A DNA stretch of 36,607 nucleotides from Flavipsychrobacter sp. GTDB lineage: Bacteria; Bacteroidota; Bacteroidia; Chitinophagales; Chitinophagaceae. The translations under genes were made by a program, and so were the position numbers. The DNA is taken from assembly GCA_025963465.1 (NCBI GenBank), contig JAOQAP010000249.1, positions 1 to 36,607 on the forward strand, in the 5' to 3' direction. Of the stretch, positions 16,254-36,607 are shown piece after piece. The notes beneath the pieces are model-generated. The model was not told where the DNA came from. It did not search any database and saw nothing but the letters and a program-made list of their open reading frames with translations. Numbering within the stretch: the stretch's first letter is position 1; each line of letters begins with the position of its first letter.

Positions 16254-19200
16254 ATGAAATTTGTTACCCGTATCACCCTATTACTGTTCTTTTTCTGTGC
16301 TTTCGCATTCACAGCCGGGGCAGTGACTGCCAGTTTCAGGGCCGACGTTTCTTCAGGTTGTGCTCCGCTTGTTGTGCATTTCACAAATACTTCTACGGGC
16401 GCTACATCTTATTACTGGGATCTGGGCAACGGTACTACTTCTACGTTGAAAGATCCATCTGGAACATACCTGACCGCAGGTACCTATACTGTAAAACTCG
16501 TCTCTACAAGCGGGGGAACATCGGTGACCTATACAATGACAATAACAGTGTACCCCCTGCCAGTAATATCTTTTTTTGCTGATGACACATCTGTATGCCC
16601 AGGCACAAAGGTCACATTTACAAGTACGACAATAGGCGGCGTACCGGGACCAATGACGTATTCATGGAACTTCGGCGATGGCTTCCTGGGTACAGGTACG
16701 CCTGTCACTCACGTCTACAATACTGCGGGTTATTACAATGTCACACTAACAGTGACCAATTCAACGGGGTGCATAAATACACTTACCGTACCTGCATACA
16801 TGCATGTATTTAATCCACCCATTCCAAATTTTGCGGTAACAGCATCACATCTTTGCTCAGCGCCGGGAACTGCTTTTTTCACCAATTTATCGTCCGGCAC
16901 ACCTGCACTTAGCTATAAATGGTCATTCGGCGATGGAGGGACTTCTATCACAACAAGCCCATCCCATACCTATGCAAGCGTTGGCAGCTATCCCGTGAAA
17001 TTAGTGGCTAAAGACGGTAATGGCTGCATTGATAGTATCACTGTACCTGGCTTTATTACGATAAGCAATCTAATAGCTTCATTTACCTCTGTAAGCTCTA
17101 CATGCCTTTACTCTTCTGTTAAATTCACAAATACTACTACAGGCTACACCTCCTGCAGCTGGGACTTTGGTGATGGGGCAACATCGGTAGTTCCATCTCC
17201 TACTCACGCATACACAGTTGCCGGTCCCTATAGTGTACGACTAATAGTAGACGATGGTTATTGCGTAGATACAGTGATACACTCAATTATGGTGAATGCA
17301 GGGCCTGTAGTCAGCATCACCCGAAACCCTCCGAGGCCATGTCCGCCACCTGTAGCTATAACGCTTGCAAATGGTGGACCAAGTAGCGCTACGATCAAAT
17401 GGATATTCGGCGATGGAACACCGATGGGTTCGGGCTCATCCATTACTCATACCTATACAAACAGGGGTGTCGATACCATAAAAATGATCGCAACAGACCC
17501 GTCCACCGGGTGCACAGATACTACAATTCGCATAGACACTTTTTATGATGCCAGGCTGGCTATTGTTGACACACCCAAAAAAGGCTGCAGGCCGCTGAAA
17601 GTGAATTTTAGTGCAAGTGTCCTTACTACGGCACCAGACACATTATCCCCTCCACATTTGTATCCATGGCCAATTACCAGCTATACCTGGGATTTTGGTG
17701 ATGGTTCTCCTACAGTAACAATACCAGCACCAGGAACACCCCCACCACATACATATACCTCGGTAGGTATATGGACAGTACGTGTAACAGCACTCACCAG
17801 CAATGGATGTATAATTACAGACTCGGTAAAAGTAATGGCCGGCGATGCACCTACTGTAACCGGCTCTGCCGCGCCCACACACATCTGCTGGGGAAAGTAT
17901 ATTAAGATACCAATAAAGGTAACTTCAGGTATGGCTGACGAATATTTCTGGGCATTCTCGGCACCTATAAGCAGCACGCTGGAAGAAACCGCAGATAGCC
18001 TTATCATGTATTTCCCGTTACCGGGTACATTTACTGTAACTGTATCTGCATCCTATCATGGGTGTATGAGTGTGCCATATCCAATACCTGTCACGATGAT
18101 CGTGGATTCACCAATGGCAAGAATGTCGAAAACATTCGCATGCTACCCAAGAAATACGGTAAACTTTTTTGATAACTCGTTAGGTGATGATACACACCTG
18201 TGGATATTTGGTGATGGTACTACATCTCCTTTAGCAAACCCGGTACATAGTTACCCCACCCTGGGGATATATACGGTCCAGTTGGCCACTTACAATATAC
18301 GAAGCGGGTGCAGGGACACCGCCACCGAAATAATAGACCTGCGACCGCCGATCTTTGATTTTGTGGCGGACAGGGTAGCTGTTTGCCGCGATGAGATCAT
18401 ACATGTTACACCGATCATAGTGCGGGATACACCACGAAGTTATGACTGGTACCTGAATGGTACGCATATATTTGACACCTTCCACGTCAATCCGCGGACT
18501 TATGTATTCACAGATACTTTCTTTGTTACAGGCCTGTACACACTTAGCCTGGTCATTAAAGATCACCTTGGTTGCGACGATACACTTACAAAAACAAACT
18601 ACCTGATAGTTGCAAAACCTATAGCTAAGATCTTAGTAACTCCGCCTTCGGGATGCAGATCATTACTGGTTACATTTAAAGACGTTAGCACGGATGTAAC
18701 GGGTGTAACATTAACTAATTTTGACTGGACATTTGGCGACGGAGGCACCGCCTCGGTAACCACTCCGACCACTACACATGTTTACACCCTAAATGGCAGC
18801 TATTCGGTAGACGAGATCGTAACCGATAACATAGGCTGCAAAGACACTACGCATTTCTCACCAATAGTCGTCTCGCGACCGCTCGCAGCATTTCATGCAA
18901 GCAATGAGACCCCTTGCGCCTGGGATAGCACCTATTTTGTAAATAACAGCCTTGATTTTGTAAGCTCTGTATGGGATTTCGGAGATGGTAGCCCTACAGT
19001 ATCTACTATGAATACCTGGCATACCTATAAAGCGCCGGGCAAATACACAGTACGACTGGTGGTTACTGACGCAAATGGTTGTAAAGACACTGCAACCTAT
19101 ATAGATTATATAAAGATCACCAAACCTTCGGCATCTTTCCACATGAGTGATTCTTTTGCGGTTTGTCCTCCGCTCACAGTTGTATTTTACAACACCAGCG

Positions 19201-20858
19201 GCGGCGGCGCAATAGCTTACAGCTGGGACTTTGGCGATGGCAATACTTCTGCTATATTATACCCGAGCGATATGTATACAAAGACCGGGAACTACGTGGT
19301 AACACTCGTTGCCATAGATGGAAACGGATGCCCTGACACGGCTATTGGAAACGTTAGTATTTTCGGCTATGCCGGTGCATTTACCTACACCCCGCTTAAA
19401 GGGTGCTCACCTCTGAACGTACATTTCAAATCGAAATTCAGTAATGTGGCAAGTATTATTTTCGACTTTGCCGATGGTGTAACAAGCACGCCATCCACCA
19501 TAGATAGCGCAGACCATGTATACACAGCTCCCGGTGAGTATATACCTAAGCTGATACTTAGTGACAACACCGGATGCCAGAATTCAAGCATGGGCCTGGA
19601 TACGATCAAGGTAAATAAAACAGATGCTGCGTTTACTACTGAGCCTACCCCTGTTTGCGAAAGAGGAACTTTCAATTATAAGGAAACCTCACACAGCTAC
19701 TTCGCTACAACGGTTGTAGCATGGCTCTGGACATTCAACAATACAGATACCAGCACACTGATGTCGCCGACCAACTCTTATAGTCTTGCAGGCACTTATC
19801 CTACCTCGCTTCGTGTTACAGATAGCTGGGGTTGTATAGATTCTGCCACTCAGTTAGTTGTAGTTATGCCGCCACCGGTAATAATAGCAAGTCGCGATAC
19901 GATCGTGTGCATTGGCGATGGTGCTACTATGACAGGATACGGTGGGGTAAGCTACATATGGTCTCCTGCAGCTACATTAAACTGTACCAACTGTAATCCG
20001 GCAATAGGCTCACCTAAAGTGGTTACGACCTACACAGTAACCGGTACCGATAAATTCGGATGTACAAATATTGATACGGTAACAGTACGACTGAAAACAA
20101 AAACTATAAGCGTAGGCCGTGGCGATACAACAGTATGTTTCGGGGTTGTTGTGCCTCTGTCCGATTCCGGTGCAACTAAATTTACCTGGGTACCTGCGGC
20201 AGGCCTTAGTGACCCGACAAGCAGCAACCCACTGGCATCGCCGGACACTACAACAAATTACATGGTCATAGCTCAGCTGGGCAGTTGCATACCGGACACC
20301 AACTACGTGCTCGTAACCATACATCCCGTGCCTGAAGTAGATGCAGGGCCTGACCAGACAATGGTTGCAGGTATGTCGGCAGACATCAGGGCATCAGGAT
20401 CTAATATATACAGCATCAGTTGGGGTGGCGATAGCACGCTCAGCTGCAATACGTGCCTGACACCTAAAGCAACTCCGTTCCAGACCACAAAGTATGTGAT
20501 ACATGTAACATCTTCATTTGGTTGTCCTAATACGGATACCCTTGTCATACACATATACTGCGACAAGAGCCAGATATTTGTACCAAATGCATTTACACCA
20601 AACGGAGATGGAGAAAATGATGTCTTCTATCCACGAGGCAGAGGTATATCTAAAGTTAAATCATTCCGTGTGTATAACAGGTGGGGACAGCTGATGTTTG
20701 AACGTTCTAACATACAGCTCAATGATGCGACCAATGGATGGGACGGTTCTTATATGGGCGATATGCCAAGACCGGACGTATTTGTGTATGTAGTAGAAGC
20801 GATATGTGATGCCGGTGACGCAGTGAATCTGAAAGGCGATGTAACCATTATCAGGTAA
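16254..20858 (+). CDS. Giant PKD-repeat surface protein with type B (gliding) sorting domain, copy 1
   Basis: A 1,534-residue exported protein. A signal peptide (MKFVTRITLLLFFFCAFAFTAGA) is followed by about 14 tandem PKD or PKD-like domains. Most carry the WxFGDG turn and a YTxxGxYxVxLxVxDxxGC end (for example YSWNFGDG, YKWSFGDG, HLWIFGDG, FDWTFGDG). Two units are degenerate (FWAFSAPIS, YDWYLNGTHIF). Three shorter modules with paired Cys and Pro-Ala-Thr follow (LNCTNCNP, LSDPTSSNP, LSCNTCLTP). The last 100 residues (from about 1436: FVPNAFTPNGDGENDVFYP to GDVTIIR) form the gliding-motility-associated type B C-terminal domain. It is predicted to reach the surface by type IX secretion as a long stalk-like adhesin. 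A paralog follows 31 bases downstream. No PorP/SprF partner gene, common beside such genes, is present. Confidence 0.9.
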   Translation: MKFVTRITLLLFFFCAFAFTAGAVTASFRADVSSGCAPLVVHFTNTSTGATSYYWDLGNGTTSTLKDPSGTYLTAGTYTVKLVSTSGGTSVTYTMTITVYPLPVISFFADDTSVCPGTKVTFTSTTIGGVPGPMTYSWNFGDGFLGTGTPVTHVYNTAGYYNVTLTVTNSTGCINTLTVPAYMHVFNPPIPNFAVTASHLCSAPGTAFFTNLSSGTPALSYKWSFGDGGTSITTSPSHTYASVGSYPVKLVAKDGNGCIDSITVPGFITISNLIASFTSVSSTCLYSSVKFTNTTTGYTSCSWDFGDGATSVVPSPTHAYTVAGPYSVRLIVDDGYCVDTVIHSIMVNAGPVVSITRNPPRPCPPPVAITLANGGPSSATIKWIFGDGTPMGSGSSITHTYTNRGVDTIKMIATDPSTGCTDTTIRIDTFYDARLAIVDTPKKGCRPLKVNFSASVLTTAPDTLSPPHLYPWPITSYTWDFGDGSPTVTIPAPGTPPPHTYTSVGIWTVRVTALTSNGCIITDSVKVMAGDAPTVTGSAAPTHICWGKYIKIPIKVTSGMADEYFWAFSAPISSTLEETADSLIMYFPLPGTFTVTVSASYHGCMSVPYPIPVTMIVDSPMARMSKTFACYPRNTVNFFDNSLGDDTHLWIFGDGTTSPLANPVHSYPTLGIYTVQLATYNIRSGCRDTATEIIDLRPPIFDFVADRVAVCRDEIIHVTPIIVRDTPRSYDWYLNGTHIFDTFHVNPRTYVFTDTFFVTGLYTLSLVIKDHLGCDDTLTKTNYLIVAKPIAKILVTPPSGCRSLLVTFKDVSTDVTGVTLTNFDWTFGDGGTASVTTPTTTHVYTLNGSYSVDEIVTDNIGCKDTTHFSPIVVSRPLAAFHASNETPCAWDSTYFVNNSLDFVSSVWDFGDGSPTVSTMNTWHTYKAPGKYTVRLVVTDANGCKDTATYIDYIKITKPSASFHMSDSFAVCPPLTVVFYNTSGGGAIAYSWDFGDGNTSAILYPSDMYTKTGNYVVTLVAIDGNGCPDTAIGNVSIFGYAGAFTYTPLKGCSPLNVHFKSKFSNVASIIFDFADGVTSTPSTIDSADHVYTAPGEYIPKLILSDNTGCQNSSMGLDTIKVNKTDAAFTTEPTPVCERGTFNYKETSHSYFATTVVAWLWTFNNTDTSTLMSPTNSYSLAGTYPTSLRVTDSWGCIDSATQLVVVMPPPVIIASRDTIVCIGDGATMTGYGGVSYIWSPAATLNCTNCNPAIGSPKVVTTYTVTGTDKFGCTNIDTVTVRLKTKTISVGRGDTTVCFGVVVPLSDSGATKFTWVPAAGLSDPTSSNPLASPDTTTNYMVIAQLGSCIPDTNYVLVTIHPVPEVDAGPDQTMVAGMSADIRASGSNIYSISWGGDSTLSCNTCLTPKATPFQTTKYVIHVTSSFGCPNTDTLVIHIYCDKSQIFVPNAFTPNGDGENDVFYPRGRGISKVKSFRVYNRWGQLMFERSNIQLNDATNGWDGSYMGDMPRPDVFVYVVEAICDAGDAVNLKGDVTIIR

Positions 20859-20889
20859 TACTGGTAACCAGACTCTATAATTATTTGCT

Positions 20890-23800
20890 ATGAAACCGAT
20901 AACCCGGATCTTTCTGTTATTACTTATATTATGTGCTTCTTCAACGATGGTGAAGGCTGTTACGGCAGGCTTTACAGTTGATAATAGTGCTGGCTGTGCA
21001 CCATTGGTAGTAAATTTCACGAATACATCTACAGGTGCCACCAGCTTTTTCTGGGACCTGGGTAATGGCACCACATCTACGCTTAAAAATGTTTCAGGCT
21101 CCTACACGGCCATTGGTACTTATACCGCAAAGTTAACAGCAACAAACGGAGGCACCTCAGTGACGTATTCAATGACGATCACTGTTTATCCACCACCCAT
21201 AGTTTCATTTTATGCAAACGATACTTCTGTTTGCCCGGGTACAGCGGTGACCTTCTACAGCACAAGCACTACCGGGGGGTCCCCCGGCCCAATGACCTAC
21301 ATCTGGAACTTTGGAGACGGTACCATAAGCACATTACCAACCCCTACACACGCATATACCTCACCAGGATTTTATAAGGTGACGTTATCTGTAGCTACAT
21401 CAATGGGTTGTATGAACAGCCTTGCTATAAATTCATACATGCATGTGTTCAACCCACCGGTAGCAAGTTTTACCGGATCTCCTACTAAATTTTGTACTGC
21501 ACCGGCTACGGTTACTTTTAAAAACTTCTCTACCGGCCCTCCGTCATTGTCTTATGCATGGGCATTTGGTGATGGAGGAAGTTCATCATCGCCGGCTCCA
21601 ACGCATACTTATGCATTAACCGGCAGCTTCAGCGTAACCCTTATTGTTACCGATGGCAATGGCTGCCAGGGTACCAGTATAATGCCGGCATATGTGAACA
21701 TTGGCCACGTTACTGCGGGATTTACAATGCCTGCAACAGCTTGTGCAGGCAGCAATGTAGGGTTTACTAATACCACAACCCCTACGCCCAGCACTAATAA
21801 ATGGAGCTTTGGCGATGGAGGTACGTCTACACTTTATGCTGTTAACCATACTTACACGGCACCCGGCACTTATACTGTAAAGCTTGTCGCATCTGACGGT
21901 ACCTGCCCATATTCCGTAACTCATACGATCACCATCAATCCTTTACCTACTGCAATTATAGGGCAGTCCTCGCCTCAGCCATGTCCACCTCCCACAAACA
22001 TGACGTTTACGGGAACAGTGTCTCCCGGCACTACGGTGTCATGGAAGTTTGGTGATGGCACTACCGGATCAGGCAACCCGGTATCGCATGTATACACAAA
22101 AGCAGGTATTGATACAATAACTATGACCGTTACGAATCCTATCACCGGATGCGTAAGCACCTCATACGTAATAGATACCTTTTTCGACATGACCTTTGAT
22201 ATGCTCGCATCACCATTGCGGGGCTGCAATCCACTGACGGTCAACTTTGATATTACGGCTATGACCACGCAACCTAATCCTTCATTGCCGGCACATCCAT
22301 ACCCATACCCATTTACCTCCTATTCATGGAATTTTGGTGATGGATCACTACTCTCATCCGTACCAAAACCATCACACACATACACTGCAGCCGGAATATA
22401 CAAAGCAACTGTAACTGTAGTGTCCAAAAATGGTTGTGTGTTTATGGACACAGTAACAATTACGGTCAGCGATCCCCCGGTAATTACTGCATCAGCTACC
22501 CCTACGCATATCTGCTATGGCAATAGCGTACACATTCCCATAACCGTACTTTCCGGCCTGGCCGACACGTTTATATGGACCTTCAGCGGAGGAATAAGTC
22601 CTGTTATCAAAAAAACAGGATCGCTGGATATTAAATTCCCACTGCCTGGTATTTATACATGTACGGTCACCGCCTCGTATCGCGGCTGTTTCGGTGCACC
22701 GTACGTCATACCTATTTCCATAATAGTAGATTCGCCTATAGCCGTAATGAAATGGGCCGGAGCATGTTCCCCACGCAATACCATCAACTTCTTTGATAAC
22801 TCATTAGGAGATGATACGCACTTATGGATATTTGGAGATGGTACTACGTCCACATTAAAAAACCCAACACATGCTTACCCTTACCTTGGCACGTTTACTG
22901 TTGTTCTGGCAACTTATAATATAAAAAGCGGGTGCAGGGATACTACTACCGACATAATAGATCTATCTCCGACAGTTTTCGATTTTACCGTAGATCACCC
23001 TACCATATGCAGGGATGATGTCGTAAACCTGACACCTTTCGTTATAGTGGGCGCTGCAAAAGCATACACCTGGTACCTCAATGGTGTCTCATATGGCCCG
23101 GGCGATCCTATCACACATGTACTAAGTGCATCATTACATGGTACCGGCATATATGATGTGCGGCTGGTCATATCTGACCAGCTGAATTGCCTGGATACCT
23201 TAACAAAAACAAGTTACATACAGGTTGCCAAACCGGTTGCCCATATAACATTGTCTCCCACAAAAGGATGCGCCCCTCTCCCTGTTCTGTTTACCGATGC
23301 AAGCACTGACATACCGGGAGCCACACTTAATCATTTTGATTGGACATTTGGCGACGGTGGGTCCGCATCTTTAACTGTCCCTACTGCTTCACATACTTAT
23401 ATCACCGGCGGCACCATTACAGTCACAGAAATTGTGACCGATAACTTCGGGTGTAAAGACACAACCAAAACCACAATAGTAGTGACCAGGCCTAATATAT
23501 CTTTTTCTGCCAGCACATTATTTCCCTGCCTGAATATCCCGGCTGTGTTTACTAATCACACACCATTGGTCGCAACAGCTTTATGGGACTTTGGCGACGG
23601 TACCACTTCCACATTGATATCGCCATCACATATTTATACAGCGACAGGCACATACACTGTGAAATTACACATTGTAGACATGGGCGGATGCATAGCCGAC
23701 ACAACAGCTGTCAGCTGCATGCATGTAGCCAAACCTACAGCTGATTTTAACATGACAGACTCCTTCTCCATTTGTCCTCCTATTACTGTTACGTTCTTCA

Positions 23801-25467
23801 ATACAAGTAGTGGTGTCGGCGCATTAGGCTACGATTGGTTCTTTGGCGACGGCAATTCTTCCACATTATATTCCCCAAGCAATCTTTATCTGAAGCCCGG
23901 GCACGATACTGTAACATTAACTGTTACAGACGCTAACGGATGTACGGACACCAAGACCAGGTACATGGACATTTTTGGCTATGCGGGAGCATTTAGCTAT
24001 GGCCCACTCACAGGGTGTGCACCATGGCTGGTAAATTTTAAGTCTACACTATCAAATGTCCCAAACATCATCTGGGACTTTGCCGATGGCATTATTGCTA
24101 AAGCTTCCAATAAAGATACGATTAGCCATGTATACGAGTTCCCCGGCGCATATGTTCCCAAACTCATCTTAAGTGATAATACCGGTTGCGAAAATTCCAG
24201 CGTAGGAATAGATACAATAAAAGTTGATGCGGTATCAATGGGCTTTACTACTGTACCATCTCCTGTGTGCGAAAATGTACAGGTGTATCTTAAGGATACT
24301 TCCTTTAGTTATTTTTCTACGGTAAATTCATGGATGTGGGTATTGTCAGATGGCGCTACCAGCACACTGCGATCTCCAACCTTCCTATACACGAAAGCCG
24401 GCACTTACGAAATCTCGCTCAGGGTATCTGACGGCTGGGGCTGCGCTGATTCCGGTAAACAACAGATCATCGTATACCCACCGCCTGTCATCACTACAAG
24501 TCCTGATAGTATTATATGCCTTACAGATGCTGCAACACTCACGGGGTATGGAGGTGCAACATATACGTGGGAGGCACCATCTACGCTTAGCTGCACTGCA
24601 TGTAATCCTACATTTGCATCGCCGCTTGTGGTGACTACCTACACCGTTACAGGAACAGATATACACGGCTGTAAAAATACAAATACTGTAACTGTGCGCC
24701 TGAAAACAAAAACAGTGAGTACCGGCCATGGCGATACCGCGGTTTGCTATGGCGTGGTTGTACCATTGTGGGATTCAGGAGCCAACAAATTTAACTGGAT
24801 ACCAGCTGAAGGGCTTAATGACCATACAAGCGGCAGACCTATAGCATCGCCTGAGCGGACTACAAACTATATGTGCATTGCGCAATTGGCGAGTTGTATA
24901 CCAGACACGAATTTTGTGCTGGTGACTGTTTACCCGGGGCCAATGGTAGATGCAGGGCCTGACCAAACGATCGTTGCCGGTATGTCGGCAGATCTGAGAG
25001 CCGCCGGTACCGATATAGCTTCTATTAGCTGGGGGCATGACAGTACGCTCAGCTGTGATGGCTGTATGACACCAAGGGCCATACCTTTCCAGACAACAGC
25101 TTACGTTATCCATGTAAAATCATCATTCGGCTGCCCCAATACGGATACAGTGGTGATCCATCTTTATTGCGACAAAGGGCAGGTATTCGTACCAAACACA
25201 TTTACCCCTAATGGCGATGGTGAAAACGATGTTTTCTATCCACGGGGAAGAGGTATATCGATCGTAAAGTCATTCCGTATCTACAATAGGTGGGGACAAT
25301 TATTGTTCGAACGGTCGAACATCCAGTTAAATGATGCGACCAATGCATGGGACGGTTCTTATATGAACGATATGCCAAGGCCTGATGTATATGTTTACGT
25401 TGTGGAAGCGGTATGTAATGCAGGCACCCCGATAAATATCAAAGGAGACGTTACCATCATCAGGTGA
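20890..25467 (+). CDS. Giant PKD-repeat surface protein with type B (gliding) sorting domain, copy 2
   Basis: A 1,525-residue paralog of the preceding gene with the same module order: signal peptide (MKPITRIFLLLLILCASSTMVKA), about 14 PKD-like domains, three Cys-pair modules (LSCTACNP, LNDHTSGRP, LSCDGCMTP) and the type B sorting domain (FVPNTFTPNGDGENDVFYP to GDVTIIR). The sorting domain is almost identical in protein sequence to that of copy 1, and the PKD part is more diverged. DNA comparison shows many silent differences even in the sorting domain, so the duplication is old and the protein is under selection. The 31-base spacer holds no terminator, so both are probably transcribed together; a strong terminator follows this copy. 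Adhesion or matrix building is inferred, not shown. Confidence 0.9.
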   Translation: MKPITRIFLLLLILCASSTMVKAVTAGFTVDNSAGCAPLVVNFTNTSTGATSFFWDLGNGTTSTLKNVSGSYTAIGTYTAKLTATNGGTSVTYSMTITVYPPPIVSFYANDTSVCPGTAVTFYSTSTTGGSPGPMTYIWNFGDGTISTLPTPTHAYTSPGFYKVTLSVATSMGCMNSLAINSYMHVFNPPVASFTGSPTKFCTAPATVTFKNFSTGPPSLSYAWAFGDGGSSSSPAPTHTYALTGSFSVTLIVTDGNGCQGTSIMPAYVNIGHVTAGFTMPATACAGSNVGFTNTTTPTPSTNKWSFGDGGTSTLYAVNHTYTAPGTYTVKLVASDGTCPYSVTHTITINPLPTAIIGQSSPQPCPPPTNMTFTGTVSPGTTVSWKFGDGTTGSGNPVSHVYTKAGIDTITMTVTNPITGCVSTSYVIDTFFDMTFDMLASPLRGCNPLTVNFDITAMTTQPNPSLPAHPYPYPFTSYSWNFGDGSLLSSVPKPSHTYTAAGIYKATVTVVSKNGCVFMDTVTITVSDPPVITASATPTHICYGNSVHIPITVLSGLADTFIWTFSGGISPVIKKTGSLDIKFPLPGIYTCTVTASYRGCFGAPYVIPISIIVDSPIAVMKWAGACSPRNTINFFDNSLGDDTHLWIFGDGTTSTLKNPTHAYPYLGTFTVVLATYNIKSGCRDTTTDIIDLSPTVFDFTVDHPTICRDDVVNLTPFVIVGAAKAYTWYLNGVSYGPGDPITHVLSASLHGTGIYDVRLVISDQLNCLDTLTKTSYIQVAKPVAHITLSPTKGCAPLPVLFTDASTDIPGATLNHFDWTFGDGGSASLTVPTASHTYITGGTITVTEIVTDNFGCKDTTKTTIVVTRPNISFSASTLFPCLNIPAVFTNHTPLVATALWDFGDGTTSTLISPSHIYTATGTYTVKLHIVDMGGCIADTTAVSCMHVAKPTADFNMTDSFSICPPITVTFFNTSSGVGALGYDWFFGDGNSSTLYSPSNLYLKPGHDTVTLTVTDANGCTDTKTRYMDIFGYAGAFSYGPLTGCAPWLVNFKSTLSNVPNIIWDFADGIIAKASNKDTISHVYEFPGAYVPKLILSDNTGCENSSVGIDTIKVDAVSMGFTTVPSPVCENVQVYLKDTSFSYFSTVNSWMWVLSDGATSTLRSPTFLYTKAGTYEISLRVSDGWGCADSGKQQIIVYPPPVITTSPDSIICLTDAATLTGYGGATYTWEAPSTLSCTACNPTFASPLVVTTYTVTGTDIHGCKNTNTVTVRLKTKTVSTGHGDTAVCYGVVVPLWDSGANKFNWIPAEGLNDHTSGRPIASPERTTNYMCIAQLASCIPDTNFVLVTVYPGPMVDAGPDQTIVAGMSADLRAAGTDIASISWGHDSTLSCDGCMTPRAIPFQTTAYVIHVKSSFGCPNTDTVVIHLYCDKGQVFVPNTFTPNGDGENDVFYPRGRGISIVKSFRIYNRWGQLLFERSNIQLNDATNAWDGSYMNDMPRPDVYVYVVEAVCNAGTPINIKGDVTIIR

Positions 25468-30398: not shown

Positions 30399-31634
30399 TT
30401 ATTTACCGGATAACTTTAGCTTGCTGTATCGTGCCAAAGCGATGGCCCTTGAATATAGCATGGCAGAAAATGAAAGAGTGATTTCAGGGACCGGTGTATT
30501 CTTTTCAGGTATGTGAGCTATTACATCAAGGTACCTGTCAAGACATACCTGCATGGTAAATTCCATTTCGGCCAGCTTCCTTGAAGCTACAGCCCGTTTA
30601 TCTTTAGGTACTGCAGCTATGTCATTGATCTTGGCTATAGCATCAGCTATATCACCTACTTCAAATACCCTGTAACAGTCGCTGGCCAAAGCATGATGCT
30701 CATAATCTTCTATGCCACTTACCCTTGTACCCACCACACTGCAACCTGCAGCAAGCGCTTCCATCATCGCTATTGGGGTACCTTCAAAATCAGAAGTGAG
30801 TATCAGTATATCTGACACCGCCAAATGGCGGGCAACTTCCTGCTGCGACAACCATCCCCAAAAGGTAACACGGTCTGACAGCCCTGCATCTTTAAGCCCT
30901 TGCTCAAGAGTAGTTCGTGCTGTTGCCCCATCCCCTATAATATCTAAATGAAATTTAGTATTATTCTTTGCCAGTTCCACTGCTATTTTTAGCAGGTCAC
31001 CTGTTCTTTTCTGGTAATTACTGATGCGCCCTACATATACAAGGCGTAGTGTATCATTGCTATTATAGTTGCTTGGGTGTGTAGTTGCCAATGCGATGCC
31101 ACACGGTATGGTATATAAATGCTTCGGAGAAAATGCAGGCACTAGTTCCTTTACTATTCTGCTCACCCGTTTAGACACACAGACAAGTATATCTATACGG
31201 CTATGATATTTTGCCGCAAGATTGTAATAATGCTTTTCATCGGCATGCAGTACTCCTACTACAGGATATGACCCATAGAGTGCTGTTGCTGCATCCCATG
31301 TGGGTGCGCTATCAGAAAGGATAACGGGAGTACCTGCAGGCAATCGGGCCAACAGTTTCTTATATACATAGGCACGGTATTCATCCGTACCAAATTCAAA
31401 TTCATATCCTGCACTACTTTTTATGACATTTACCTTATTACCATCTTTAGCCAAAAGCTGCAGCATGGTCTCCTTTCCTTTCGCTGAAAAAAACTCCTTT
31501 ACCGGTTCTACCGTGATGAAGTAAATTGTATGCCCTTTTGAGGCCAGCGTTATTGCAGCGTCTGCCATCCACCTGGTTACCCCACCCCTGTGGTAGGGAT
31601 GGCACAAAAATGCTATTCTTCTTTTTTCTGTCAT
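30399..31634 (-). CDS. GT4-family glycosyltransferase beside the lasso-peptide genes
   Basis: A 411-residue GT-B glycosyltransferase of family 4. The N-terminal domain starts RIAFLCHPYHRGGVTRWMADAA, with the glycine-rich acceptor loop. The C-terminal domain has LRLVYVGRISNYQKR, FHLDIIGDGATARTTLEQ, VTFWGWLSQQEVARHL, and the donor-binding EX7E form SDFEGTPIAMMEALAAG. No signal peptide is present, so it is cytoplasmic. It is divergent from the B1 (PqqD-like) gene of the lasso locus by 165 bases and is followed by the terminator near 30382. It may modify the lasso peptide or may be an unrelated envelope enzyme; only the position supports the first option. A TAATTTTG element at 31655-31648 could be its -7 promoter box. 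Confidence 0.85.
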   Translation of the reverse strand: MTEKRRIAFLCHPYHRGGVTRWMADAAITLASKGHTIYFITVEPVKEFFSAKGKETMLQLLAKDGNKVNVIKSSAGYEFEFGTDEYRAYVYKKLLARLPAGTPVILSDSAPTWDAATALYGSYPVVGVLHADEKHYYNLAAKYHSRIDILVCVSKRVSRIVKELVPAFSPKHLYTIPCGIALATTHPSNYNSNDTLRLVYVGRISNYQKRTGDLLKIAVELAKNNTKFHLDIIGDGATARTTLEQGLKDAGLSDRVTFWGWLSQQEVARHLAVSDILILTSDFEGTPIAMMEALAAGCSVVGTRVSGIEDYEHHALASDCYRVFEVGDIADAIAKINDIAAVPKDKRAVASRKLAEMEFTMQVCLDRYLDVIAHIPEKNTPVPEITLSFSAMLYSRAIALARYSKLKLSGK

Positions 31635-31647
31635 TATTTATCGCTTT

Positions 31648-31655
31648 CAAAATTA
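31648..31655 (-). promoter_or_regulatory. Possible -7 promoter element of the GT4 gene
   Basis: TAATTTTG on the minus strand matches TAnnTTTG and ends 13 bases before the ATG at 31634. The -33 TTTG is missing, so the call is weak. Confidence 0.35.
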
Positions 31656-31799
31656 TAACTAAAACAACATAAAAACGGCTATAGTAGCGCAAAAGCAGCT
31701 AATACACACAAAATCCTGCACTATGGGGATGATTAGTTGTAAAAATGTTTTTTAAGAATGCAATAACTGTCCCATATTTGCAGTCAGATAAATGGGAAA

Positions 31800-32096
31800 A
31801 TGGCCAACACTGATATTATTACACCGGATACTGTAGTCGTGAGAAACGATAAAAAATTTATTACCAGCCCTATCGGTGATGAAATTGTCATGATGAGTAT
31901 TGAAAGCGGCAACTATATTGGTATCAATGAAGTAGCCAGTACTATATGGAAGAAACTTGAAACACCCCTAACAGTAAAAGACCTCGTTACCTACCTTTTG
32001 GCTTCCTACGATATAGGAGAGAAAGAGTGTGAAGAGAAGACAATCGCACACTTAGATGACATGCTGAAGAAAAACATGATCAGCATTGTTCCGTAG
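31800..32096 (+). CDS. PqqD-like leader-peptide-binding protein (lasso B1, RRE)
   Basis: A 98-residue PqqD-family protein, the RiPP recognition element that binds the leader of a precursor peptide and presents it to the peptidase B2. The sequence shows the winged-helix pattern of the family: VVRNDKKFITSPIGDEIVMMSIESGNYIGINEVASTIWKKLETPLTVKDLVTYLL, then CEEKTIAHLDDMLKKNMI. It is a free-standing protein, as in the split B1/B2 lasso systems, while E. coli McjB has both parts fused. It is on the plus strand, convergent with the precursor gene, whereas the other processing genes are on the minus strand. A degenerate promoter box CATATTTG is at 31773-31780. The ATG at 31800 gives the normal family length. 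Confidence 0.88.
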   Translation: MANTDIITPDTVVVRNDKKFITSPIGDEIVMMSIESGNYIGINEVASTIWKKLETPLTVKDLVTYLLASYDIGEKECEEKTIAHLDDMLKKNMISIVP

Positions 32097-32141
32097 GTTA
32101 ATGATTAACAATCAACTCTTTGGCCATTAATAAACACAAAT

Positions 32142-32176
32142 AAAAATTCGGAAATTTCTATTGAAATTCCCGAATT
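32142..32176 (-). terminator. Terminator of the lasso precursor transcript
   Basis: On the minus strand AATTCGGGAATTTC (32176-32163) pairs with GAAATTTCCGAATT (32158-32145) over 14 positions with one A-C mismatch and a 4-base loop. A T-rich run follows. The opposite strand has no T-run. It would end transcription 50 bases past the precursor stop codon. Confidence 0.65.
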
Positions 32177-32225
32177 AATGCTATTAATATGTAGTTAAAC
32201 TAGTATAGTATATTTATGCAGTAGC

Positions 32226-32369
32226 TTAGCTTAAAGTACCAGCAGGGCCACCATCATCTCCAGGATTAGTACTACCAAGAGTATTCTCGTTAATAGAAAG
32301 AACAGTGATTTTTGGATCAGACCATGACTTTTTTATAACTGTGATAGCTTCTTTTCTTGCTTTTTCCAT
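32226..32369 (-). CDS. Lasso-peptide precursor (leader 31, core 16 residues)
   Basis: A 47-residue peptide from the ATG at 32369. Leader residues 1-31 contain WSDPKITVL, which fits the YxxP-type motif that lasso leaders use to bind B1, with Trp for Tyr. Thr30 sits at position -2 from the cut, as lasso leader peptidases require. The predicted core is GSTNPGDDGGPAGTLS: Gly1 provides the amine, and Asp8 (or Asp7) provides the side chain for an 8- or 7-residue ring. The tail is only eight residues and has no aromatic or large basic residue, so the usual steric plug is absent. The C-terminal Ser16 is the residue that lasso-associated HPr-like kinases phosphorylate. The longer reading from 32441 is rejected because it would start upstream of the predicted transcription start. 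Genes for B1, B2 and cyclase surround it. Confidence 0.8.
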   Translation of the reverse strand: MEKARKEAITVIKKSWSDPKITVLSINENTLGSTNPGDDGGPAGTLS

Positions 32370-32401
32370 GTTGGTAATATTATGAAGATTGATTTCAAGT
32401 G

Positions 32402-32432
32402 TAAAATTACAAAAAAAATTGTAAAAACCAAA
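32402..32432 (-). promoter_or_regulatory. Promoter of the lasso precursor gene
   Basis: On the minus strand TTTG (32432-32429), exactly 19 bases, then TAATTTTA (32409-32402) fits the Bacteroidota consensus except for the last base. Transcription would start near 32396, giving a leader of about 27 bases before the ATG at 32369. A second -7-like box, TATGTTTG (32456-32449), lacks a -33 partner. Confidence 0.55.
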
Positions 32433-32472
32433 CCTGTTCAAAGACTTGCAAACATATATTTTTTTAAAATTT

Positions 32473-34365
32473 CTATTCCGAAAATATATATTTGTTATCC
32501 TTTAGCAATTGCAGGAAAACACATGCAATAACGCCTTGGATGATCCTGATACCCGCTATTTCATGTGGTTTCGTCACGCCGGCAATAGGCTTCAGTCCAT
32601 CAATATTGCTTACGATTTTGTTTTTATCTATGTATTTTGATACAAAAGTATCGCTATCGGAGTGAATAATTTTATTAACAAATTGTTTATTTTTTAAGAT
32701 TCGGTTTATGTAATCAGGAGAATAGGCAAGTTTATCTTTGCGCCATTGTATCTCTTTCGGCAATATCCCTTCCATAGCCCGCCTTACCAGGCTCCTCTTT
32801 ACGCCACCTACCACAAATTGCTTTACAGGGACATTCAGCATGAATTCGTTGATCTTTCTGTCAAAAAGGGGTAATTCGCACCTCATACCAAACCGTTCAT
32901 TGCGGTTGGCAAACTTACCCATAGTGCGGCTTACGTATCCGGATGCTATATAACCGGCCATAAATAAGCTATTATCTATTGTATCACTAAAATCAAGCTG
33001 GCCTTTGTACCCATTTACGAATGTATCTTCCAAGGGAGTATAATGCAGCCAGTTTACCCTTTTCCTGTGTTTGATGGAACTAAACAGCTTAAAAGCCCCG
33101 GTATGTGCAATTACTTCTTTTTTGAGTATTCGAAGGAACGGACGCTTTTCATTGCTGCTAAATTGTTGCAGTAATTCAATAGCGTCTGTTAATTTCAGAT
33201 CGCTTACCATTTGATAAATGGCTGTGGACCCGGGATGAGATACCAGGAAATCACCGCCATACCCGGAAAAGAAGGTCCTTATATTTTTTGCCTGTGCAGC
33301 CTCACATATTGCCCTATCCATGTAGAAAAAAGCATTAGGAAAAGTTTCTTCTATATCAGATGCAAGTTCCAGACCACTGAAAGGCCCGATATCATTAGCT
33401 GCTACATATACCTGTTCCAGGTTGCTGATATGGTCACCCACTATCTTTATGTACTTACGCTCATCCAGTTCTATACCGGAATGGCCAGCTGGCAACACAG
33501 ACGAAAACGCATATAACGGTTTGTTTCTTTTTTTAAGGATACTACCTGCTATACAGGCTATTGATGAAGAATCCAGCCCCCCGCTTAAACTTATACCCAC
33601 CGGCAGGTCTGTATTCATTCTGTTTTCAACGGCCTGTATCATCAGTTCGCAAAGGCATTCAGCCCAGTCGGCATCTTTTTTGAAATTATAGGTTCCTGTT
33701 TTTTCAGGTTTCCAATATTGTTGCTTTCGCAGTCCTTTGCTGTCGATAGTCAATTTATTGCCGCCGCATAAGGCAAACACTTCATTATTATAAGTCCCTG
33801 ATTGATCAGACTGGAGAAAAAAGTATTCTATCAGCGATTCGGGATTGAATACATTGGGTGTTTTTTTAACACTGAGCACTCCCTTCATTTCACTCGCAAA
33901 AACGAACATTTCAGGGCTATCATAGTAAAACAGTGATCTGCTCCCCATATGATCTGTTACCGCATGTAATACGTGCTGCTCCTTATCCCATATCACAAAT
34001 GCATACTCCCCATCCAAATGGTTCTGGAAATCATTGCCCCACTTTTTATAAGCAGCAAGTATAAGCAGGCTATCGGGATAAGTACTTCTTTGCTCCTTCT
34101 CAATATTCAGGTTGCTAAACAGTTCATCCCTGTTATGAAGGCTTGCATCAGCAGCTATTACAAGGTTTCCGTCTTCATAAGGTTGTCTTTCGTGTCGTTG
34201 CTCCGGAGATACAATAAACTGGTGATGGCCAATAAATCCTTGTTGCCACTTCCATATGGCCCTACCATCAATAGCCCTGTGTTTCAGTGCGTGCTGCATT
34301 GAAACAATATCTGCCATCATTGACACAGGATATTTTTTATATATTATACCAAAAATGGCACTCAT
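32473..34365 (-). CDS. Lasso cyclase, asparagine-synthetase-like (C protein)
   Basis: A 630-residue homolog of class B asparagine synthetase, acting as the ATP-dependent enzyme that closes the lasso macrolactam by adenylating the ring Asp/Glu and letting Gly1 attack. The N-terminal domain (about 1-200) has the glutaminase fold but begins Met-Ser-Ala; the catalytic Cys2 of true asparagine synthetases is missing, so it cannot release ammonia from glutamine. The synthetase domain has the pyrophosphatase loop S259-LSGGLDSSS and the conserved FFSGYGGDFLVS. The C-terminal part (RCELPLFDRKINEFML, LPKEIQWRKDKLAYSPD) also fits the family. The gene begins 9 bases after B2 and ends 104 bases before the precursor start. 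The context and lost Cys argue for cyclase over asparagine synthesis. Confidence 0.92.
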   Translation of the reverse strand: MSAIFGIIYKKYPVSMMADIVSMQHALKHRAIDGRAIWKWQQGFIGHHQFIVSPEQRHERQPYEDGNLVIAADASLHNRDELFSNLNIEKEQRSTYPDSLLILAAYKKWGNDFQNHLDGEYAFVIWDKEQHVLHAVTDHMGSRSLFYYDSPEMFVFASEMKGVLSVKKTPNVFNPESLIEYFFLQSDQSGTYNNEVFALCGGNKLTIDSKGLRKQQYWKPEKTGTYNFKKDADWAECLCELMIQAVENRMNTDLPVGISLSGGLDSSSIACIAGSILKKRNKPLYAFSSVLPAGHSGIELDERKYIKIVGDHISNLEQVYVAANDIGPFSGLELASDIEETFPNAFFYMDRAICEAAQAKNIRTFFSGYGGDFLVSHPGSTAIYQMVSDLKLTDAIELLQQFSSNEKRPFLRILKKEVIAHTGAFKLFSSIKHRKRVNWLHYTPLEDTFVNGYKGQLDFSDTIDNSLFMAGYIASGYVSRTMGKFANRNERFGMRCELPLFDRKINEFMLNVPVKQFVVGGVKRSLVRRAMEGILPKEIQWRKDKLAYSPDYINRILKNKQFVNKIIHSDSDTFVSKYIDKNKIVSNIDGLKPIAGVTKPHEIAGIRIIQGVIACVFLQLLKDNKYIFSE

Positions 34366-34374
34366 AATAGCTCT

Positions 34375-34794
34375 TTAACTACCAAACCAGCTAACTACAG
34401 TATACTTTGTTACATCAGGCCCTCCGGTAACTACTATTTTATCCACGGTAAGCCATGCATGCGCCTTCAGTTCATCTGCAGCATCTTTAAACACACCCAA
34501 AAATAAAAGGCTTTTAATGCTCCTCAACCGCAACATGATCTTTGCTGCGATAGCCTGTTCAAAACATTTTGTGCGCCATGGTGAGTAACGGCCTGCGCGC
34601 AAAATACAGATACCGATATTCTGCACAATGCCTGTAGGCTGTTCATTATCATCTATCGATTTGTCACTCATTAATTTACCTAGCATTGGCGCTATCCGTT
34701 TAAAAGGCAACACGACCAGTATCATTCTGGCAATAGCAAGAAAGATCCAGGCTTCCATAAACAGCAGGTATTCTTTGAGTGCTCTTTTAGCCAT
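34375..34794 (-). CDS. Lasso leader peptidase, transglutaminase-like (B2 protein)
   Basis: A 139-residue protein matching the C-terminal, peptidase half of McjB. It removes the leader from the lasso precursor with a Cys-His-Asp triad. Cys77 lies in SPWRTKCFEQAIAAKIMLR and His112 in LKAHAWLTVD, 35 residues apart as in the family. Asp118 or another downstream acid completes the triad. GVFKDAADELKAHAWL is the characteristic region before the His. The N-terminal 30 residues are hydrophobic (FMEAWIFLAIARMILVVLPF), so membrane contact is possible. Its ATG overlaps the stop codon of the upstream membrane protein by one base (TAATG), and the cyclase follows after 9 bases, so the three are translated as a tight unit. 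Confidence 0.9.
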   Translation of the reverse strand: MAKRALKEYLLFMEAWIFLAIARMILVVLPFKRIAPMLGKLMSDKSIDDNEQPTGIVQNIGICILRAGRYSPWRTKCFEQAIAAKIMLRLRSIKSLLFLGVFKDAADELKAHAWLTVDKIVVTGGPDVTKYTVVSWFGS

Positions 34795-35831
34795 TAGCTT
34801 ATCCTTTTTTCTTCGCTCTTATGGAACAACCGCCCCAGTTCATCTGCCGACAGAGCAACTATTACACACAGCACAGGCATTGCAAGGTAAAACATTCGCT
34901 CCATGGAGCCGGACAAAAGCATCTGTAATACCACTGATAGCATGAACCAAATAAGGTACCGGTCTAGCGATCGCAAAATAAATTTACCCTGCGTAGGACT
35001 AATGAAAAAGACAAGCAACGGCGCTGCTATCCAAAACCCGGTATTCATTAATATCTTGAAAAACGTGGACAAACTCAGCAATTTGGGCAGGTTACGCACC
35101 AGGTTTGGCACATGGCTCATATCAGCTTTCAGCCCTCCCATTACAGATACCGGAGCATAAACGTCATATATATAACGGTAGGCAAATACCAATACCCCAG
35201 ACGCTAAAAAGTACAATAACAGTTTCTTCTTGTCTATATGGCTAAAGAAAAATATCAGCGGAGCTATGAATATAAAAGACTCCTTGGAAAATGGTCCCAG
35301 GAAAACGGCCCATAAAAGCATTGTGGTATTTTTTTCTTTCAAGCCGCACAAAGTCATGGCTATTACCACACAGAACAGCGAATCTACTAATGGATAAGCC
35401 GCCATGTATATAGTATAGCGGCAGGTAAGCATAGCCAGTGTACCGATCACCGCAGATGCCCTGCTGACACCAAAAGCTTTGCAATAACGGTATATGAGTA
35501 CACCATAAAAGGCGGTCAGCAATGTATTTACCAGAAAAAAGCTGAAGGCCAATGAATAATCGTTAGCGAAATAAGATGGGCTGAACTTTGCGATCAAAGG
35601 ACCGAATAATGCATTAATAGCAGCAGCAGCAAAGGGAATTATTACCCTGTATCGCCTTACCGCGCTTTGAGCAAGATCAAAATGCGCAAGGCCCATGTAT
35701 GTCTGGCAGTCAGGAAAATGAAGCAGGTTATGCTCAAAAAGGATAGCTATTGCAGGGCCGGTAATAACGGCCAGGCAAAACAGGAACACCAGTAAATATT
35801 CATTTGATACAATATTCCTTAATACCCGCAC
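34794..35831 (-). CDS. Polytopic membrane protein, GT-C-like, coupled to lasso B2
   Basis: A 345-residue integral membrane protein with about nine or ten helices. I do not recognise a named family. The layout (helix 1 at about residues 12-31, then a loop with Asp41 in FPDCQTYMGLAHFDLAQ, then many helices) recalls GT-C glycosyltransferases, whose first loop carries a catalytic Asp or Glu. GPFSKESFIFIAPLIFF recalls the SKE segment seen in TMTC-like proteins, including the partial gene at 1-677. No ABC-transporter motif is present. It starts with GTG at 35831, 80 bases after the kinase gene, and its stop overlaps the B2 start by one base. The coupling suggests a role in maturation, modification or export of the peptide, but this is inference from position only. 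Confidence 0.75.
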   Translation of the reverse strand: MRVLRNIVSNEYLLVFLFCLAVITGPAIAILFEHNLLHFPDCQTYMGLAHFDLAQSAVRRYRVIIPFAAAAINALFGPLIAKFSPSYFANDYSLAFSFFLVNTLLTAFYGVLIYRYCKAFGVSRASAVIGTLAMLTCRYTIYMAAYPLVDSLFCVVIAMTLCGLKEKNTTMLLWAVFLGPFSKESFIFIAPLIFFFSHIDKKKLLLYFLASGVLVFAYRYIYDVYAPVSVMGGLKADMSHVPNLVRNLPKLLSLSTFFKILMNTGFWIAAPLLVFFISPTQGKFILRSLDRYLIWFMLSVVLQMLLSGSMERMFYLAMPVLCVIVALSADELGRLFHKSEEKRIS

Positions 35832-35875
35832 TATTCCGGTTTTTTTTATAAACGGTAAGTTACTTATTGTCTTTG

Positions 35876-35883
35876 CAAAAGTA
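35876..35883 (-). promoter_or_regulatory. Possible internal -7 element before the GT-C-like gene
   Basis: TACTTTTG on the minus strand matches TAnnTTTG in the 80-base gap between the kinase and membrane-protein genes. No -33 partner is seen; an internal start is possible but weakly supported. Confidence 0.3.
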
Positions 35884-35911
35884 TCTATGTTTTGGATAAT
35901 ACCTCTTAATA

Positions 35912-36607
35912 TCAGAACAATGATTCCAGGGTACCTGCAAGGTCCTCAATATTGCAGTTCACAGGCCTTATTACTTCATATACTGTAGTGCTACTGGTCA
36001 AAAGGGACATAATTCTAAAATGCAGCACCTTTAGTTCCGGATCGGCAATAAGATACTTCCGGTAGGTTTGTTTTTCCAGTTCACCGAAAGCCTCTATACC
36101 GCTTAGTGTACGATATGCCACCTTATCTACCGCTTCACTTTTCTTTAAAATGAATATCCTACCTATTATAAACGGCTCTTTAAGAAATGTATCGTAAAAA
36201 AAGTAGCCGTATTTATCCAGGTCATTGTTCACTTTAAAGGTCTTATCGCGGTAGGCATCCTGCCTAAGTTTGGAAACAGCGTCATCCCATAGTTTCAGCA
36301 TAGGGTATGAAGCTACACCAAGTACATGCTTATCATTTTCCGGATCAGCCTTCAGTATACATATATCATCCGTAAATATTCGATAGCCTTTAGAAACGAG
36401 GTACGCAAGTGAGGTAGACTTACCCGCACCGGAATCCCCGGTGAACAAAATAAGCCTGTCATCCTTTACTATTCCGGATGCATGTAAGGGCATCACTTTT
36501 CGCTGCAGCAATACTACGGCCATCACAGTAGCCAGTAAAAATATCCTTATCTCCCGGCCATGCCTGCCTTCAAAAGGCTCTATTATCACATCTTTGCCTG
36601 CCGTTAC
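35912..36607 (-). CDS. HPr-kinase-like lasso-peptide kinase, 5' end outside window
   Basis: The frame is open across the right edge (VTAGKDVIIEPFEGRHG just inside it), so the N-terminus is missing. The GTG at 36589 is internal and not the real start. The visible 231 residues show the family pattern: FLLATVMAVVLLQRKVMPLHASGIV, the Walker A loop ILFTGDSGAGKSTS, and the Asp pair in GYRIFTDDICILKAD. A C-terminal part specific to the stand-alone branch follows. In paeninodin-type clusters such HprK-like proteins phosphorylate the C-terminal Ser of the lasso precursor. Here the precursor does end in Ser, and the gene lies directly upstream of the coupled membrane protein, B2 and cyclase genes. Its role as a precursor kinase is well supported by context; HPr regulation is less likely. 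Confidence 0.88.
   Translation of the reverse strand, partial: VTAGKDVIIEPFEGRHGREIRIFLLATVMAVVLLQRKVMPLHASGIVKDDRLILFTGDSGAGKSTSLAYLVSKGYRIFTDDICILKADPENDKHVLGVASYPMLKLWDDAVSKLRQDAYRDKTFKVNNDLDKYGYFFYDTFLKEPFIIGRIFILKKSEAVDKVAYRTLSGIEAFGELEKQTYRKYLIADPELKVLHFRIMSLLTSSTTVYEVIRPVNCNIEDLAGTLESLF

Follow-up and report, generated by a model that had tools for sequence, protein, structure and literature searches.

A gene cluster predicted to make a phosphorylated class II lasso peptide in Flavipsychrobacter sp.

Genes of the locus

In this study, we examined a putative lasso peptide locus in Flavipsychrobacter sp. (GenBank assembly GCA_025963465.1), a genome which we infer to belong to the Chitinophagaceae. 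The analysed stretch, referred to as the window, is one complete contig of 36,607 nucleotides (nt), JAOQAP010000249.1, from a 4.18-Mb assembly of 277 contigs that is 97.5% complete. An earlier sequence-only reading had recognised five lasso peptide genes towards the end of this contig, namely B1, B2, a cyclase (C), a kinase (K) and a small precursor peptide (A), and each was found where it had been placed (Table 1). Between K and B2 lies a gene overlooked by that reading, which encodes an integral membrane protein. K, the membrane protein, B2, C and A follow one another in this order on the minus strand, and B1 is on the plus strand. The intervals along the minus strand are 80 nt between K and the membrane protein gene, a 1-base overlap between the latter and B2, 9 nt between B2 and C, and 103 nt between C and A; the five genes are predicted to form one operon.

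Table 1. Features of the lasso peptide locus, with positions in the window (aa, amino acids).
Feature	Position	Strand	Remarks
B1, PqqD-like leader-binding protein (predicted)	31800..32096	+	98 aa; PF05402, NF033536, PDB 9x90_B
Candidate terminator, 14-pair hairpin and T-rich tail	32145..32176	-	3' of A
Precursor A	32226..32369	-	47 aa; kept beside the same enzymes in relatives
Cyclase C, asparagine-synthetase-like	32473..34365	-	630 aa; NF033535, PF00733, PF13537
B2 leader peptidase (Transglut_core3)	34375..34794	-	139 aa; NF033537, PF13471
Integral membrane protein	34794..35831	-	345 aa; same place in locus L094
HprK-like peptide kinase K	35912..36607	-	N-terminus lost at contig end; catalytic motif

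The best NCBIfam match of the cyclase was NF033535, the lasso cyclase model, at 388 bits (cut-off 525); PF00733 and PF13537 matched as well. The protein contains SGGLDSS and carries Ser at position 2 instead of the Cys2 nucleophile, in agreement with the earlier description of a cyclase lacking Cys2. The N-terminal residues MSA were found in 31 of the 32 cyclase matches of the group described below; the exception, in locus L105, was matched from residue 66 only.

B2 passed the NCBI lasso B2 model NF033537 (95 bits, cut-off 33) and matched PF13471 at 78 bits. Its catalytic residues Cys77 and His112, named by the sequence-only reading, are in place, and Cys...HAW was present in all 26 B2 matches, the window's included. 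No sequence relative of B2 was found in the PDB set at E 0.1. The gene is rare: it was detected in 10 of the 294 genomes sampled in the family, counting the window genome, and in none of the four other genomes of the same genus in that sample. B1 scored above the cut-off of PF05402 (57 bits), and its best NCBIfam match was the lasso PqqD model NF033536 (70.8 bits, cut-off 80). Its best solved relative, PDB 9x90_B (59 bits), is by name a lasso PqqD family chaperone.

The kinase motif H-x14-G-x2-G-x-G-K-S-x15-DD is complete in the window, which bears out the earlier assignment of K as HprK-like. However, the gene runs off the contig, lacking about 79 residues relative to the 310-aa homologue in L094, and HprK-type models matched weakly, under their cut-offs (Pfam Hpr_kinase_C, 21.8 against 33.3 bits; NCBIfam HprK_rel_A, 35 against 200 bits). 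Among the 29 kinase-like matches in the 33 loci examined, 22 fit the motif and seven depart from it. A motif H...GxxGxGKS...DD is described for BsfK (PMC10368454), and His-Lys-Asp-Asp are given as essential for paeninodin kinases (PMC9266682).

The precursor and its conservation in related loci

Precursor A begins with ATG and has a 31-aa leader bearing Trp(-16), Pro(-13) and Thr(-2); the gene-length limit of Prodigal is 90 nt. The frame is also open upstream from a TTG at 32441, and comparison with relatives favours the ATG. The core, GSTNPGDDGGPAGTLS, consists of 16 residues with a C-terminal Ser16. A strict motif, W..P(10)T.G(6)[DE], applied to open reading frames (ORFs) of 25-160 aa, occurred once in the window and never in 150 dinucleotide shuffles. 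A looser motif was found once in the window, three times in the 150 shuffles and once in 745,230 bases of 53 other cyclase-search loci.

Cyclase-profile searches of 396 genomes of the order, 395 genomes of the class (overlapping sets) and a wider contig collection identified a group of close cyclases in Bacteroidota. A single cyclase sequence used as query of the contig collection gave no matches; the alignment as query recovered the relatives. We examined 33 loci, comprising the window, three others, 27 of the 80 loci from the contig search (L094-L120) and two further stretches (L194, L195). In the tree, the window pairs with L094 (96/92), then with L095 (87/94).

A loose precursor pattern gave 36 matches in 27 of the 33 loci, every one beside lasso genes. 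Because this pattern is circular as a test, WxxP peptides were then picked by position regardless of their other residues. In each of the 31 loci that have a cyclase, all WxxP-containing ORFs of 25-120 aa were taken that share its strand and end 60-700 nt beyond it. This set gave 29 distinct tails, two of them too short to score, and 27 were scored.

The case made by the sequence-only reading depended on whether related genomes keep the peptide next to these enzymes. Such conservation was observed, with a WxxP peptide just after the cyclase in 24 of the 31 loci. In the other seven, the contig goes no further than the cyclase (L096, L098, L114, L120), the precursor is upstream (L105) or the pathway is split (L099, L100). 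Counted from the Trp (W) of WxxP, Thr occurs at W+14 (position -2) in 25 of the 27 scored peptides and Gly at W+16 (position 1) in 23, with Phe in two; Asp occupies W+23 (position 8) in 23, and the remaining four have an Asp one residue away. The Asp is at position 9 in L081 and L113, and the peptide of L115 and one of L118 have a leader shorter by one residue, with Ile(-2) and Asp8. The WxxP leader, Thr(-2) and Gly1 recognised earlier in the 47-residue peptide are thus all present and conserved in the cyclase group. The acid left as Asp at position 7 or 8 is likewise present, but the ambiguity is settled by alignment: since Asp at W+23 is conserved in the relatives, and the residue of the window core aligned with it is Asp8, Asp8 and not Asp7 would close the ring, predicted as Gly1-Asp8 (GSTNPGDD).

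The earlier reading had also considered that a better precursor might exist just outside the window. A profile built from 13 precursors had a single match across the entire assembly, namely the window peptide, and the contig ends at 36607; no second precursor was found in the assembly by this search.

The convergent B1 had been described as an unusual layout. Its orientation was confirmed (B1 and A are tail to tail, with the end of B1 129 nt past A), but a B1 opposite to the cyclase strand is usual in this group, being found in 18 of the 21 loci with both genes (same strand in L081, L110 and L115). B1 lies downstream of the precursor in six of these 18 loci, at no more than 400 nt in the window, L082, L095 and L108 and at about 2 kb in L097 and L111, and is divergent from K in the other 12. 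The layout does differ from that of ten more distant loci (L012, L014, L016-L020, L083-L085), where B1 is on the cyclase strand in all eight that have it (L012, L014, L016, L017, L019, L020, L084, L085).

Predicted product and alternative readings

This Chitinophagaceae locus very probably encodes the biosynthesis of a paeninodin-type class II lasso peptide that carries a phosphate. The genes and their family matches, order and spacing argue for this reading, as do the four precursor residues conserved across the group, Trp(-16), Thr(-2), Gly1 and Asp8. The class is a known one, not a new class, and the locus adds another lasso system to it. What had been a call on a single locus is strengthened to a conserved group.

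In the proposed pathway, B1 would bind the leader around Trp(-16)/Pro(-13) and pass the precursor to the kinase, which would phosphorylate a hydroxyl, most likely that of the C-terminal Ser16. B2, through Cys77/His112, would cleave after Leu(-1), beside Thr(-2). The cyclase would activate Asp8 using ATP and link it to the amino group of Gly1, with the eight-residue tail GGPAGTLS threaded through the ring. An ATP-binding cassette (ABC) exporter encoded past the contig end would secrete the product. The calculated [M+H]+ is 1384.598 for the core less one water, 1464.564 with an added phosphate and 1626.617 with phosphate and hexose. L094 encodes an ABC transporter (PF00005, PF00664) and an NTP_transf_5 protein (PF14907) in divergent orientation to K; by analogy, at least one of the two is likely to be found beyond window position 36607. 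The contig end could not be joined to other contigs, as its terminal 200 bases match elsewhere over 14-32 bases only.

Several points weigh against this reading. B1 and C are divergent, since they score below the curated NCBIfam cut-offs. The core is Gly-rich, and its tail has no bulky residue able to plug the ring. In the ten more distant loci, which have kinase, B1/B2 or cyclase-like genes, a Thr-Gly1-Asp8 precursor was not convincing, with one loose match (L012); this precursor is a property of the cyclase group, not of all neighbouring systems. As for phosphorylation, the window kinase is truncated, and 11 of the 27 distinct precursors, from kinase-bearing Chitinophaga and [Flexibacter] loci, do not end in Ser, which is the last residue of the window core and of 15 of the 26 others (16 of 27 in total). 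Ser16 is an uncertain site; Ser2, Thr3 or Thr14 are possible alternatives, and BsfK acts on Ser3 (PMC10368454).

Two WxxP peptides near the cyclases of L084 and L085 were considered as precursors and rejected, as they do not fit the rule. A simple relationship between the C-terminal Ser and the kinase was also rejected. Precursors of L109, L110 and L113 end in Ser with the kinase not in the fetched stretch; the two genomes involved do have a kinase at another place, which in that of L109 is about 8 kb away from the cyclase. Many kinase-bearing Chitinophaga loci without a terminal Ser likewise counter such a link.

The membrane protein between K and B2 had no Pfam or NCBIfam match at E 1. In L094 it occupies the same position, is 68% identical and, as in the window genome, is present in a single copy. 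A seven-sequence AlphaFold model reached a predicted local distance difference test score (pLDDT) of 69 and a predicted template modelling score of 0.72. Foldseek searches of the PDB with this low-confidence model returned GT-C enzymes as top matches (oligosaccharyltransferases, ALG9, Pmt1; best E 0.029, TM-score about 0.5), none reaching E 0.001, which suggests a weak likeness to GT-C glycosyltransferases. Sequence relatives among solved structures were restricted to receptor and V-ATPase chains, weak and implausible matches at E 0.05 or worse, and were rejected.

The position of this gene, its single copy in both genomes and the Foldseek matches, together with the hexose that pseudomycoidin bears on phosphoserine (PMC9266682), are consistent with a product that differs from a simply phosphorylated peptide: a GT-C glycosyltransferase would decorate the peptide once phosphorylated, and the resulting phosphoglycosylated lasso peptide would arise in another way than through the nucleotidyltransferase homologue of pseudomycoidin. 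We consider this unlikely, given the pLDDT of the model, the lack of a Foldseek match at E 0.001 and the occurrence of the protein in only two of the 33 loci, the window and L094. Moreover, its homologues, found in five of 194 other family genomes, had no lasso gene within the fetched stretches. In four of the five (G171 of the same genus, G169, G079 and G156) the homologue adjoins a gene which we take to be tuf (EF-Tu), and in G182 no such neighbour was seen within the 6.3 kb examined, so the membrane protein may be a passenger. In four genomes of the family group, the relatives stand directly before the presumed tuf (L189:6823-9109, L190:6938-9236, L191:7369-9682, L192:4430-6725). It is quite improbable, but conceivable in outline, that in the sub-lineage of the window and L094 a GT-C-type glycosyltransferase with relatives beside tuf was recruited into a kinase-bearing lasso operon, where it would add a lipid-linked sugar to the phosphorylated C-terminal Ser, the peptide being glycosylated at the membrane during export.

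The phosphorylated lasso peptide must also be weighed against an unphosphorylated one, with the kinase serving another peptide or being degenerate. The incomplete window kinase, the absence of a universal C-terminal Ser among kinase-bearing loci and the distance of about 8 kb between kinase and cyclase in the L109 genome are consistent with this account. Nevertheless, it is improbable, as the visible catalytic motif is intact and the kinase lies upstream of B2 on the same strand in the window, L094 and L095; the lasso peptide is probably phosphorylated. Finally, that the PqqD, Transglut_core3 and amidotransferase genes serve another ribosomally synthesized and post-translationally modified peptide, with the 47-aa ORF arising by chance, agrees with the sub-threshold scores of C and B1 and with the more distant loci that have similar enzymes without the precursor motif, but is extremely improbable given the exact Thr(-2)/Gly1/Asp8 spacing conserved in the precursors and the absence of strict motif matches in 150 shuffles.

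Relation to known systems and variation within the group

The paeninodin cluster of Paenibacillus dendritiformis has the order C A K B1 B2 D (PMC5067487, PMC9266682, PMC8498205). The window shares with it the split B1/B2, an HprK-like kinase, a cyclase before the precursor and a class II core ending in Ser. It differs in the order K, membrane protein, B2, C, A, in the opposite strand of B1, in the Bacteroidota host and in that no transporter gene was seen between 31800 and the contig end.

The Bradymonas bsf cluster (BsfA, K, B1, B2, C, D, N) resembles the window in its kinase motif H...GxxGxGKS...DD and Gly1-Asp8 ring (PMC10368454), and its nucleotidyltransferase has a counterpart in L094. 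BsfA differs from the window peptide in Ile(-2) for Thr(-2), in a YxxPxL instead of a WxxP leader and in a phosphorylated Ser3, the window peptide having a C-terminal Ser; Ile(-2), known experimentally from BsfA, is shared by the relatives L115 and L118. The pseudomycoidin cluster of Bacillus pseudomycoides is likewise kinase-bearing and has a nucleotidyltransferase (PMC9266682), and L094 encodes a PF14907 protein. In the window, no nucleotidyltransferase was seen from 31800 to the contig end, and the membrane protein is present instead.

The closest match in gene order is L094 itself (uncultured Bacteroidetes bacterium MJ-time_bin-6658), where K, the membrane protein, B2, C and A are arranged as in the window and the cyclase is 57% identical. 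Its core, GSLATSADTAVTGS, differs from that of the window, and no B1 is present in the 430 nt before the L094 contig end.

Bacteroidetes have been called under-explored with regard to lasso peptides (Tietz 2017, as cited in PMC7533575), and the Bacteroidota symbiont Amoebophilus is reported to have a putative lasso cluster (PMC8831229). When nine lasso clusters were refactored, products were obtained from two, those of Bacillus cereus and Streptacidiphilus (PMC9576775). Among the entries listed for lasso peptides in Chitinophaga, Bacteroidetes, Bacteroidota (25 of 34) and Mucilaginibacter, we found no title or abstract start describing the present loci, which is weak evidence of absence, as most subscription papers lie outside the search. 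About two dozen relatives, in Chitinophaga, Mucilaginibacter, Sediminibacterium, Emticicia and uncultured Bacteroidota, make up a coherent group together with this locus; its precursors are readable, and several come from named strains. The natural variants of the group, including Ile(-2), Phe1, split pathways and the extra membrane protein, bear on questions of leader recognition and tailoring.

In Sediminibacterium ginsengisoli, the precursors L110:10126-10263 and L113:9969-10109 have Phe1 for Gly1, with Asp at 8 and 9, or at 9. Tandem sets of four (L119:9684-10534) and three (L107:9872-10328) different precursors follow one cyclase in Chitinophaga; the L119 cyclase match is in two pieces, with stops.

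In Chitinophaga oryziterrae and Chitinophaga sp. YR573 the pathway is split between two places: K, B2, A and B1 stand together without a cyclase and the sole cyclase of the group is elsewhere in the genome (L099:9872-9955, L100:9845-9922; L194:6617-8680, L195:6438-8426). This cyclase is followed by a 25-27-aa peptide with a lasso-like core (Gly1...Asp8) and a leader of about 10-12 residues without WxxP. Pseudomycoidin is reportedly formed without leader and leader peptidase, as a paper's title has it, so that by analogy the short-leader peptide is a conceivable cyclase substrate in these genomes.

Phage tail collar (PF07484) and formyltransferase-like (PF02911/PF00551) proteins recur beside lasso loci (L075:7171-8671, L082:7082-8562, L194:3843-6535), and a sulfotransferase (PF00685) lies between precursor and kinase at L015:15257-16111. 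Pfam was applied to the L075 and L015 proteins only, the others being assigned by sequence likeness.

The hairpin after A is a possible terminator: it has the longest stem among four terminator-like sites in 31600-36607, stem length being its sole support, as shuffles average 4.3 sites. The fold of 32097-32225 had a z-score of -2.7. A scan for sigma-70-type promoters was uninformative (12 sites against 14.7 in shuffles). Elsewhere in the window, two neighbouring ORFs (16254-25467; 1534 and 1525 aa) have similar starts and may encode large surface repeat proteins.

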